A DNA stretch of 64,000 nt from Ruegeria pomeroyi (GTDB taxonomy: Bacteria > Pseudomonadota > Alphaproteobacteria > Rhodobacterales > Rhodobacteraceae), in NCBI RefSeq assembly GCF_021405525.1, contig NZ_JAGQAG010000001.1, positions 1,674,001-1,738,000 of the forward strand, given 5' to 3'. A program made the translations under genes and the position numbers. Position 1 is the stretch's first letter. Every line of letters starts with the position of its first letter. The notes beneath the pieces were generated by a model. The model was not told the origin of the DNA and searched no databases. It worked only from the letters and a program-made list of their open reading frames with translations. Shown here piece by piece: positions 2,468 through 5,304 of the stretch.

Positions 2468-2813
2468 GTCCGGGTCCCCCGTGCTGGCTTTGCCCCGATC
2501 TATCCCCGATCCCGGCGGCGGGGGCAAGCGATGCAAGAACCCGCAGATCGGCAAGTTCGGGCGAATCCGTCCCTCCGATTCGCTGTGAAGTTGCCGAACT
2601 TTCGCCCCAATTCGCTGAATTTTCGGGTTGTGGATAAAAATTTTTCAATGATTTCCGTGGCCTGCAATTTTGTTGAATGACTTATTTTTGCCTCATTTCC
2701 TTAATGTGGATAACTCATTATTTTGCAACGCATGATTGAAAAATATCTTTTCGAGAGCCGTCGGTCCTGCAACCGTGAGGGGGTCATCAACACCAACTCT
2801 GGGGGACAGACCA
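2468..2813. promoter_or_regulatory. AT-rich divergent promoter region
   Basis: A 346-base gap between divergent xthA and the repeat-protein gene. Bases about 2625-2750 are far richer in A/T than the surrounding DNA, with runs such as AAAAATTTTTC and CATTATTTTG, as expected for a promoter or for a nucleoid-protein binding site. A possible -35 box TTGCCT lies at 2688 with TAACTC 17 bases further on, a weak match. GGGGGA at 2801-2806 is a good ribosome binding site for the ATG at 2814. No gene is seen in the gap. Confidence 0.4.
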
Positions 2814-3281
2814 ATGACTGCCATGCTCAAGATCAACCAAATCCAAGGCGAAAACAAAGACGGTGCCAGCATGATGGATGGCGACGTAACGGAAATGTTC
2901 TCGTCCGGCTCCGCGCCGATAACCTCGGCACGCGCAATGATGGGCGAGGGTGTTCAGATGTTCTCGACCAGCTGCCAGGCCTCGGGCGCCGACACCGCCA
3001 CGGGCGAGGGCGTTCAGATGTTCTCGACCAGCTGCCAGGCCTCGGGCGCCGACACCGCCACGGGCGAGGGCGTTCAGATGTTCTCGACCAGCTGCCAGGC
3101 CTCGGGCGCCGACACCGCCACGGGCGAGGGCGTTCAGATGTTCTCGACCAGCTGCCAGGCCTCGGGCCGCGACACCACCACGGGCGAGGGCGTTCAGATG
3201 TTCTCGACCAGCTGCGAGAAAGTGGGCGCGGTTGCGGTCAAGCTGGGCGAAGGTACTCAGATGTTCTCGTCGGGCAGCTAA
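2814..3281 (+). CDS. Repetitive Cys/Met-containing protein with GEG-VQMFSTSC repeats, function unknown
   Basis: I do not recognise a characterised function. The 155-residue product has an N-terminal part of about 42 residues (MTAMLKINQIQGENKDG and onward) and then six units of about 20 residues. Four read (T/M)GEGVQMFSTSCQASG(A/R)DT; the fifth diverges after the Cys; the last is GEGTQMFSSGS and ends the protein. A related TEMFSSGS lies in the N-terminal part, so MFS(S/T) occurs seven times. There is one Cys per central unit (five in all) and no signal peptide or membrane helix. The start was set by the GGGGGA site; an upstream in-frame start would add 26 residues. It may be a multi-core peptide precursor or a metal-binding protein; both are inference. 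Two genes follow in the same direction. Confidence 0.75.
   Translation: MTAMLKINQIQGENKDGASMMDGDVTEMFSSGSAPITSARAMMGEGVQMFSTSCQASGADTATGEGVQMFSTSCQASGADTATGEGVQMFSTSCQASGADTATGEGVQMFSTSCQASGRDTTTGEGVQMFSTSCEKVGAVAVKLGEGTQMFSSGS
2941..3240 (+). repeat. Five tandem 60-bp coding repeats
   Basis: Five consecutive 60-base units encode the 20-residue repeat of the protein above. Units at 3001-3060 and 3061-3120 are identical; the first differs from them at two bases; the fourth differs only near its 3' end; the fifth keeps its first half and diverges after the Cys codon. Near-identity at the base level points to recent duplication or gene conversion. Unit length is an exact multiple of three, so copy-number change keeps the frame. 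Confidence 0.95.
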
Positions 3282-3340
3282 GCGAAGGCAAGACAGAGGC
3301 CGGGCGTTTGTTGGGCGCCGCGAAACAGGGGAGAATTCTC

Positions 3341-4417
3341 ATGTCGAACGTAATCCATCTGAACGCCCGGCGTCCAAGCTTCGGGCCCCTTCGGGGGCTC
3401 GCGGCACTGATCGAAGGTTTTGCAAGCCATCGCCGTTTTGGGGACGACGTATTCTGGCTCAAGGAGAACGCAGAGCTTCTGAATATATTGGAATGTACCG
3501 GCCAGGCGCCGGGCGAAGAGGCCTTGGCTCCGCATCTGACCTTTTACCGCGAGTTGCCTGAACGGCTGCGCTTCTTTCCCCAATACTATCGCTTCCTGTT
3601 GTCACTGTGCCTAGATCTGGAGGATCTGGGGATGACGGGCGAGATGGGCGTCGAACTGGCCGAATGGGTGGCCGGGCAGGGCTTACCCGAGGCCGAGCTA
3701 TCGGATCTGCAACGCGCCGAGGCGCGCCGCCTGCTGGCACGACGCGGCATCGAGTTTACGCCGCGCGACGCAGGTCTGACCGACCGCTTACATGATTTCA
3801 TCGCCCGCTCAGAAACCTTTGCTCTGCCCAACAAGAAGGCGGCCTATGAGCTGACCCATATCGTTTTCTACCTTTCCGAGTATGGGCGGCGTGCGCCGGA
3901 CCTACCTGCCGAGGCGCTTGTCAGCCTCGAATTTGCAGGTCTTTTGGCCTATCTCGAGCAAAATGCGGATCTTTTAGCGGAAATCTGTGTCGCAATGCGC
4001 TATGCTGGAGCGACGCCCTCGCCGATCTGGGAAGATTGGCTGGCGGGCGCGTTAGGGGGTTTTACCCTTTTTAGTGGAGCGCAGGCAGAGATGCGGGACG
4101 ATTATCACGAGTATCTGGTATGTGCCTGGGCCGGGTTGGCGGCAGGGCGAGGCGCGCCTGATCAGGCCGTGGCACAAGGCCCGGTCTCGTTCCATCGGGC
4201 GACCGACTGGGGCGGGCCGCTACGAGAGATTTCCGAATGCATCTATCGTATGGGCGCCGCACGCAGCGGTGACTGGGGCTCGATGCGTCCGCAAATCGCG
4301 GCGCAGTTGAGCGAGACCGGCCACGATATCCTGAGCGCGGCCGAGGCCAGCAGCCCCCGGTTTGACGCTTTCTTTGCCGGCTTTGCTCGCACTGGACTGT
4401 TACGGGTGGCGGTATGA
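3341..4417 (+). CDS. Uncharacterised mainly helical protein of the repeat cassette
   Basis: A 358-residue soluble protein of unknown function, 59 bases after the repeat protein. AGGGGAG precedes the ATG well. The sequence looks mainly alpha-helical with no signal peptide or clear membrane segment. Notable parts are YRELPERLRFFPQYYRF (69-85), YELTHIVFYLSEYG (169-182) and DDYHEYLVC (253-261); the conserved-looking His, Tyr and acidic residues could be a metal or cofactor site, but that is a guess. No YcaO, radical SAM, lanthionine synthetase or protease motif is seen. Its stop overlaps the next gene's start (ATGA), so these two are translationally coupled. It may process or bind the repeat protein. 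Confidence 0.75.
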   Translation: MSNVIHLNARRPSFGPLRGLAALIEGFASHRRFGDDVFWLKENAELLNILECTGQAPGEEALAPHLTFYRELPERLRFFPQYYRFLLSLCLDLEDLGMTGEMGVELAEWVAGQGLPEAELSDLQRAEARRLLARRGIEFTPRDAGLTDRLHDFIARSETFALPNKKAAYELTHIVFYLSEYGRRAPDLPAEALVSLEFAGLLAYLEQNADLLAEICVAMRYAGATPSPIWEDWLAGALGGFTLFSGAQAEMRDDYHEYLVCAWAGLAAGRGAPDQAVAQGPVSFHRATDWGGPLREISECIYRMGAARSGDWGSMRPQIAAQLSETGHDILSAAEASSPRFDAFFAGFARTGLLRVAV

Positions 4418-5304
4418 GGTCGGCCCTGACAGGGGGAGGGCTGGTTCTGGCCTACACCGCGGTGATCTCGTCGGCAGACGCGATCACCAAGCTCATCGCA
4501 CAAGGGTATGCGGCGCCACAGCTTTACGCGATCTCGGGGTTCATCGTTGCAGCGATCAGCCTCGCGGCGGCGCGGGGTAACCGGACGCGGGCGCTCAGAA
4601 CCGTCTGCCCCCGCGCCATGGCGCTGCGGGCATTGGCAACGGTGGTGGCCTCGCTCTGCTTCTTTCATACCTTCCGGCTGCTGCCTTTTGCAGATGTCTT
4701 TGTCTTTATCGGTCTGATGCCGATCGTGGCGGCGCTGATGTCGGGGCTGATGCTGGACGAACATGCCCGCCCGGCGGCCTGGGCCGCACTGGTGGCGGGA
4801 TTTGTGGGCGTGCTTTGCCTGATGCCGGGTGGCATAGGCGCCATCGGGGCGGGGCATCTCTGGGCGCTGGGCGGGGTGGTGACGGGCACCTTCTCTCTGA
4901 TCCTGTCGCGCTATATCGGCCGCCATGAAAGCAACGCGCTGGCGCAGGTATTCTATCCGAACCTGGCGCTGGGGCTCAGCATGGCGGCGGCGCTGCCCTT
5001 TGTCTGGGTGCCGATGCCGATGCTGGATCTGGCCTGGGTCGGGGCCTATGCAGCGCTGTTGTTCCTGGCGCGCTGGCTGCTGGTGATCGCGCTCAGGCTG
5101 CTGGCGGCCTATGTGGTCACGCCGCTGTTGAACCTGCAATTCGTCTGGATGGTGGCGCTGGGCGCGCTGGCCTTTGGCGAATGGCCCGCGCCGATGACCT
5201 GGCTGGGTGCTGCCATCGTGATGGTTTCGGGCCTCTATCTGATCTGGGATCAGATGACCCCAACGCGCGCGCAGGAGGAACTGAGCCTGCGCACCGATCC
5301 CTGA
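4414..5304 (+). CDS. EamA-type DMT transporter in the repeat cassette
   Basis: A 296-residue membrane protein with about ten hydrophobic segments in two EamA halves, the usual layout of drug/metabolite transporters. The N-terminus reads MRSALTGGGLVLAYTAVISSADAITKL, given here as the first membrane helix, and the second half has the HLWALGGVVTGTFSLILSR segment. These proteins move small metabolites across the inner membrane, usually outward. The ATGA overlap with the unknown gene upstream shows it belongs to that cassette, and suggests it exports or imports a molecule connected with the repeat protein. The substrate cannot be read from sequence. Confidence 0.85.
   Translation: MRSALTGGGLVLAYTAVISSADAITKLIAQGYAAPQLYAISGFIVAAISLAAARGNRTRALRTVCPRAMALRALATVVASLCFFHTFRLLPFADVFVFIGLMPIVAALMSGLMLDEHARPAAWAALVAGFVGVLCLMPGGIGAIGAGHLWALGGVVTGTFSLILSRYIGRHESNALAQVFYPNLALGLSMAAALPFVWVPMPMLDLAWVGAYAALLFLARWLLVIALRLLAAYVVTPLLNLQFVWMVALGALAFGEWPAPMTWLGAAIVMVSGLYLIWDQMTPTRAQEELSLRTDP

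Follow-up and report, generated by a model that had tools for sequence, protein, structure and literature searches.

The repeat gene and its upstream region

The window, i.e., the whole 64,000-nt (64-kb) stretch of Ruegeria pomeroyi DNA analysed here, harbours a three-gene cassette in which a gene encoding a repeat protein is situated first, followed by a DUF6902 gene and an EamA transporter gene. The features of the locus are the following.

2629..2637, plus strand: perfect DnaA box (TGTGGATAA), first of a pair (exact match)
2705..2713, plus strand: perfect DnaA box (TGTGGATAA), second of the pair, 76 bp on and in the same orientation (exact match)
2768..2776, plus strand: conserved upstream element TGCAACCGT (GTGCAAGCGT in relatives), 46 nt before the start codon (motif conservation)
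2814..3281, plus strand: probable multi-core precursor peptide, 155 aa, seven core units (ORF translation, TRF, core parse)
2898..2912, plus strand: core copy 1, FSSGS (translation)
2961..2975, plus strand: core copy 2, FSTSC (translation)
3021..3035, plus strand: core copy 3, FSTSC (translation)
3081..3095, plus strand: core copy 4, FSTSC (translation)
3141..3155, plus strand: core copy 5, FSTSC (translation)
3201..3215, plus strand: core copy 6, FSTSC (translation)
3264..3278, plus strand: core copy 7, FSSGS, up to the stop codon (translation)
3341..4417, plus strand: DUF6902 protein, 358 aa, probable maturase, relative of DUF6895 (PF21843, E 9.2e-158)
4414..5304, plus strand: EamA-family (DMT) transporter, putative exporter, overlapping the end of the DUF6902 gene (PF00892, E 1.7e-13)

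Further annotated neighbours between 398 and 8678 encode an FAD monooxygenase, exonuclease III and an ErpA-like protein (both on the minus strand), a dGTPase, and ArgS. The ErpA-like protein reaches the general TIGR00049 cut-off and scores 110 bits against the ErpA equivalog, for which 117 are needed.

The repeat gene stands out as a tandem array of a 60-bp unit (4.6 copies, 98% match, TRF score 520), compared to a score of 89 for the next-best array of the window. This repeat architecture is real and far beyond chance. The units have the form G[DE]xxx-M-F-xxxx and are arranged as an N-terminal GDVTEMFSSGS, five GEGVQMFSTSC, and a GEGTQMFSSGS which forms the exact C-terminus. The first-pass annotation had described a 155-residue protein built of six GEG-VQMFSTSC repeats. 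Translation of the plus-strand ORF confirms the length, and the Cys-containing unit is indeed present, in five copies; the count is to be corrected to seven units, two of them Cys-free. The Cys-free versions reported for the N-terminal part and the C-terminus were recovered as an MFSSGS unit at each end and, in agreement with the same annotation, neither a signal peptide nor a membrane helix is visible by eye.

The protein had also been said to match no known family. For the window protein, one sub-threshold match each was obtained in Pfam (E 0.068) and NCBIfam (E 0.07), in line with that statement. PADLOC and PHROGs gave zero matches for the repeat protein and for the DUF6902 protein, and an anti-phage or phage function was therefore rejected for both. 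When six relatives of the repeat protein were scanned against Pfam, one of them, L140 with 20 near-identical units, exceeded the cut-off for Herpes_UL35; as no single stretch passes alone, this match is considered a repeat artefact. The repeat may conceivably be the one named DUF6749. In the open-access literature searched, no paper was found on DUF6902 or DUF6749, nor on a multicore RiPP in the Rhodobacteraceae.

The two TGTGGATAA sites, which we take to be DnaA boxes, are the only exact matches in the window, where 0.10 would be expected. Of the upstream regions, 77 were of sufficient length for this test; 48 contain one or more exact sites in this orientation and the remaining 29 none, compared to 0.12 on average in base shuffles. 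Two sites were observed in 25 of the 77, in 18 cases exactly 76 bp apart, the window included. None is present in 16 cassette-free stretches (see below). Pairs with a gap of 60-74 nt occur nine times in 149 genomes of the same family, eight times at the cassette, and in the window's own genome at this locus alone. Judged from these occurrences, a predicted DnaA-box pair precedes the repeat gene and belongs to the cassette, its position in the promoter region being that of the boxes of DnaA-regulated genes.

The element at 2768-2776 is probably part of a promoter or leader, as suggested by its conservation: GTGCAA[GAT]CGT with at most one mismatch was found in the last 90 nt of 47 of the 77 upstream regions. 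The conserved block between 2738 and 2790 comprises GAAAAA and TTTTGCAA, followed by GTGCAAGCGT at a distance of about 45 nt from the start. By eye, the flanks of the GTGCAAGCGT motif look capable of forming a hairpin in L065, L066, and L073. A sigma-54 promoter was dismissed for this element by eye, since the spacing does not fit. RNA families were not detected near 2500-3400, and two sub-threshold sRNA matches are located elsewhere (285-385).

Occurrence of the cassette and the DUF6902 protein

With an alignment of 30 DUF6902 proteins as query, the GTDB contig set yielded 346 relatives, and the analysis proceeded with the best 80. A repeat ORF is located upstream of the DUF6902 gene in all 80 fetched loci (the best 80 of 346); 77 of these ORFs were picked by script and those of L081 and L084 by inspection, and that of L099 is a fragment at the contig start. 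In total, three of the 80 repeat ORFs are cut by a contig start (L099, L082, and L106). A repeat conserved in no relative had been named as the outcome that would speak against the first-pass annotation; the same architecture recurs in each of these 80 loci. A gene for a putative precursor beside a gene for a putative modifying enzyme, both conserved jointly, corresponds to the arrangement of RiPP pathways. EamA was seen in 60 of the same best 80 loci.

Among 149 genomes of the same family, repeat matches were obtained in 37 and DUF6902 matches in 45. All 37 fall within the 45, and in each of them both genes are adjacent by coordinates; Fisher tests of this co-occurrence count genomes as independent, which genomes are not. 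On inspection, diverged repeats were also recognised upstream of DUF6902 in G071, G041, G056, G099, G115, and G075. As for the remaining two DUF6902 genomes, the gene is truncated at the end of the contig in G139, and no repeat is present in G039. Of the 149 genomes, 35 contain a close EamA relative (E up to 1e-50), always directly downstream of DUF6902, i.e., in 35 of the 45 genomes with and in 0 of the 104 without DUF6902. Since close relatives are missing in 10 of the 45, EamA is not essential to the cassette. Of 299 genomes drawn across the phylum, four contain DUF6902, all of them members of the window's family, and no DUF6902 match was found in plasmid records.

Neighbourhoods of relatives were compared with window genes only. 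Both xthA and erpA are present in 15 of 16 stretches taken from genomes that lack DUF6902, at a distance of 36-79 bp in six, 183-508 bp in six, and more than 1 kb with other ORFs in between in three. Neither DUF6902 nor EamA occurs in any of the 16 examined stretches, and thus the cassette is gained and lost as a block.

The Pfam match of the DUF6902 protein is full-length (525.2 bits, cut-off 27, profile positions 1-351 of 351). Its residues 28-233 additionally match PF21836, DUF6895, with 86.3 bits (cut-off 23.8), and HHalign of the two family alignments gave a probability of 92.7 (E 4.3e-7). By these sequence comparisons, DUF6902 is a remote relative of DUF6895. HHalign pairs six Tyr/His/Asp/Glu residues, arranged as Y-x3-H, D-x3-E, and Y-H (Y169, H173, D210, E214, Y255, and H256 in P0002), which are invariant in 49 of 49 DUF6902 and 7 of 7 DUF6895 alignment rows. 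More distant DUF6902 rows keep them as well, except for Phe instead of Y169 in G099 (L155) and their loss in G039 (L152). Due to the exchange in G099, which does carry a repeat gene, the six residues are not all strictly invariant. They may constitute the active site.

The two exceptional loci deserve a description of their own. In L155 (1100-1510), the precursor is extremely reduced, with two units and the core MMCCS, and its DUF6902 is the Y169F variant. In L152 (1431-2525), the DUF6902 homologue lacks all six residues and has no repeat gene upstream; it is a decayed or repurposed copy.

The AlphaFold2 model of DUF6902 is of high confidence (pLDDT 89.3, pTM 0.89) and mostly helical. A search of the PDB with the sequence yielded no solved structure and two matches with E of about 0.5, and a fold search with the model gave a best E of 0.07. 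A member of DUF6895 is, by the title given in the reference list of PMC13352647, a lasso-peptide epimerase (Shi et al., ACS Catal. 2026).

Nine places with DUF6895 outside DUF6902 were recovered, above the cut-off or via tblastn, and seven of these were inspected. In all seven, a small ORF of 65-143 aa precedes the DUF6895 gene on the same strand. Motifs of the type [GA]-[PRG]-[WY]-[YFV], sometimes twice, occur in ORFs of L165 (5104-5304 and 5506-5703), L164 (7440-7871), L163 (4852-5262), L167 (7747-7953), and L168 (7548-7904). A leader-like LxxSGIx(D/N) stretch is, by eye, common to the ORFs of four of the seven places. Possibly, these ORFs are precursors of another peptide group.

Identity and diversity of the core pentapeptide

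The core of the unit is a pentapeptide, F-x-[S/T]-x-x. Units were anchored on the flank only in a free-core parse of 79 proteins with 529 units, from which L099 was left out and L123, with one unit, was dropped. All cores are identical within the protein in 70 of the 79. The other nine contain more than one core type, among them the window protein and, due to a parsing artefact, L098; two core types are found in the window protein and three Ruegeria relatives. Within proteins, identity at core positions 1-4 amounts to 0.99, 0.96, 0.96, and 0.96, compared to 0.43, 0.82, 0.47, and 0.41 between proteins.

A comparison of the first with the last core copy across these 79 proteins gave 118 identical codons, 190 synonymous, and 8 non-synonymous differences, and synonymous core-codon differences are present in each of the 79. 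An earlier parse of 77 proteins constrained core positions 1 and 2 and thereby inflated identity there; the result held without the constraint. In that constrained parse, pairs with diverged linkers, which are not independent of one another, show 969 synonymous versus 32 non-synonymous core codons and 780 synonymous versus 2919 non-synonymous linker codons. The last core is the C-terminus of the protein in 71 of the 77. Several copies of one core separated by variable spacers are thus observed, as in multi-core precursors. Due to the synonymous differences in all 79 proteins and the diverged linkers, recent duplication or gene conversion is excluded as the sole cause of core identity. Since the cores are identical within proteins despite synonymous codons and different between species, selection acts in favour of a short peptide in many copies.

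Between species the core is diverse, with 25 types of majority core among 81 proteins. On a quick DUF6902 tree of these proteins, at least 31 core changes are required, compared to a mean of 56.5 and a minimum of 52 for shuffled labels, which indicates that cores follow descent yet change often. An example is given by the close sisters L066 and L068 with seven TSGS and six SSGS, respectively: the whole array has switched, every core copy having Thr codons in L066 and Ser codons in L068 at the switched position. Ser and Thr predominate (position 1: T in 44 and S in 31; position 2: S in 71 and T in 9 of the 81). Cys is found in 10 of the 81 majority cores, and lineages differ in whether it occupies core position 1, 2, 3, or 4.

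A core spacing of 8 residues was noted in L089, L120, other Shimia-group loci, and L076 (MFTSGLVQMFTSGL, TALFTSGS), seemingly the shortest that is tolerated.

Interpretation of the cassette

We consider it likely that the gene encodes a multi-core precursor of a RiPP-like short peptide, forming a cassette with a maturase and a transporter. Taken singly, the repeat protein is very likely a multi-core precursor and DUF6902 quite likely its maturase. The first-pass annotation had likened the design to multi-core precursor peptides or, alternatively, to repeat-type metal binders. The former is in good agreement with a modifying-enzyme homologue that always adjoins, a core that is uniform within the protein and varied between species, copies separated by synonymous and not by non-synonymous changes, and a last copy that usually coincides with the C-terminus. 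The latter would account for the regularly spaced Cys and Met per unit in the window and its nearest relatives, but not for the rest of the family: a Cys ligand conserved in each unit is lacking, as 10 of 81 majority cores contain Cys, at any of the four positions. Metal binding was therefore rejected as the family function, and we hold a repeat-type metal binder to be hardly probable at all.

As the main alternative to the precursor reading, the repeats could fold into a beta-solenoid, in which stacked identical residues form a ladder that binds a surface, ice, or a partner, with DUF6902 as chaperone or partner. Solenoids commonly display such ladders, and the identity of the cores would then stem from stacking. 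For the repeat protein alone, AlphaFold2 pairs strands in each unit and draws a beta-rich repeat (pLDDT of about 65-87 in the repeat part) at low overall confidence (pLDDT 65), but this value is reached by the best of five models only, the others ranging from 58 to 29, and the model has no PDB match better than E 0.3. Furthermore, cores lie 8 residues apart within arrays of 19-21 residues in 10 of the 80 extracted entries (three of them mis-picked ORFs), some precursors consist of two units only, no secretion signal is visible by eye, and the homology of DUF6902 to a peptide-modifying family would be left unexplained. A solenoid, and stacking as the origin of core identity, are thus very unlikely in our view. 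Extremely improbable is a role of the locus as DNA, where the DnaA-box pair would titrate or load DnaA and the coding repeats would be secondary. The boxes are unique in the window, and nearly all spaced pairs in the 149 genomes are found at this cassette; however, precursor and DUF6902 persist in those 29 of 77 loci whose upstream regions lack an exact box in this orientation, and the cores are under very strong coding selection.

A different question concerns the chemistry, if DUF6902 is the maturase of the precursor. Cyclisation, proteolysis, or another cofactor-free step on Ser, Thr, or Cys is possible, with a chance clearly below even. Such a step would suit the Ser/Thr-rich core positions and is consistent with the all-helical DUF6902 fold that is unlike any PDB entry, due to which the chemistry is not readable from structure. 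On the other hand, among families of published function the closest one is, by the title of the paper, an epimerase, and the shared set of six consists of acid-base type residues with no visible cofactor site. Epimerisation as the DUF6902 reaction has a chance that falls a little short of even. The link derives from one paper title and remote homology, and homologues may catalyse other reactions.

Under the precursor reading, the sequence of events would be as follows. The precursor would be translated, its frame being open, conserved, and selected, and DUF6902 would act on each F-x-[S/T]-x-x copy. The reaction would most likely be L-to-D epimerisation via the conserved Tyr/His/Asp/Glu/Tyr/His set, as proposed from the homology to DUF6895; this is the weakest chemical step. 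A peptidase would cut before the conserved Phe or the preceding residue and, on the other side, behind core residue four, where an x-Pro pair usually follows; these putative sites are placed where conservation stops and on the basis of the last core being the C-terminus. One precursor would thereby release several identical short peptides, and the window lineage should yield two products, one derived from the five FSTSC copies and the other from the two FSSGS copies. The product may then be exported by the EamA transporter, for which the chances are about even. The lineage specificity of the cores points to a signal or to a bioactive peptide with a target, although signalling as the purpose of the peptide is rather doubtful.

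Precursors of cyanobactins likewise contain several core copies with spacers in between and are encoded beside a modifying enzyme. The window cassette, with a modifying-enzyme homologue next to the array, differs by a very short core of about five residues, by parsed copy numbers of up to 20, and by one non-homologous putative maturase, and no cyanobactin-type protease or cyclase, nor any other dedicated protease, was found among the annotated neighbours of the cassette. Yeast alpha-factor is made from a multi-copy peptide pheromone precursor and resembles the repeat protein in its identical short peptides, divergent spacers, and lineage-specific sequences; in contrast, the present protein is bacterial, has no visible signal sequence, and is encoded beside an enzyme. 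We know of no receptor for the core peptide.

The closest likeness is given by the DUF6895 enzyme titled a lasso-peptide epimerase (Shi et al., ACS Catal. 2026; PMC13352647), with which DUF6902 shares the six positions and, in the seven inspected loci, the adjoining precursor-like ORF. In contrast to DUF6895, DUF6902 is a Pfam family of its own, found in one bacterial family only, and it is paired with a repeat protein whose leader differs. The genes expected in lasso-peptide pathways, for a leader peptidase and a lasso cyclase, are absent among the annotated neighbours between 398 and 8678. MslH, the epimerase of the lasso peptide MS-271 (reference list of PMC13352647), is comparable as a standalone enzyme acting on a ribosomal precursor; according to its title it is metal-dependent, and PDB searches with DUF6902 gave no link to it in sequence or fold.

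A likely role is thereby proposed for two uncharacterised families, with DUF6902 as a peptide maturase and an uncatalogued repeat protein as its substrate, the repeats of which provide a ready-made assay. The synonymous-only divergence of the core copies is a clean evolutionary pointer to the place of the peptide product. The cassette recurs in abundant marine bacteria, with 346 relatives in one genome collection, and two or three genes suffice. Altogether, a small repeat protein whose many-copied peptide varies by lineage, encoded beside a probably peptide-modifying enzyme and a transporter, suggests an undescribed family of ribosomal signals or natural products in marine roseobacters. It is tempting to go further and to speculate on a new roseobacter RiPP class, in which a multi-core precursor, a DUF6902 epimerase, and a DMT exporter would give rise to peptides of about five residues with a D-residue, lineage-specific and switching as whole arrays, with expression tied to replication via the DnaA-box pair and a pherotype-like signal in Gram-negative marine bacteria; in this complete form the proposal is unlikely. 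If the peptides are signals, their lineage-specific cores would represent a rare example of Gram-negative bacteria that signal with small peptides, and if they are bioactive, they would offer very short and easily varied scaffolds.
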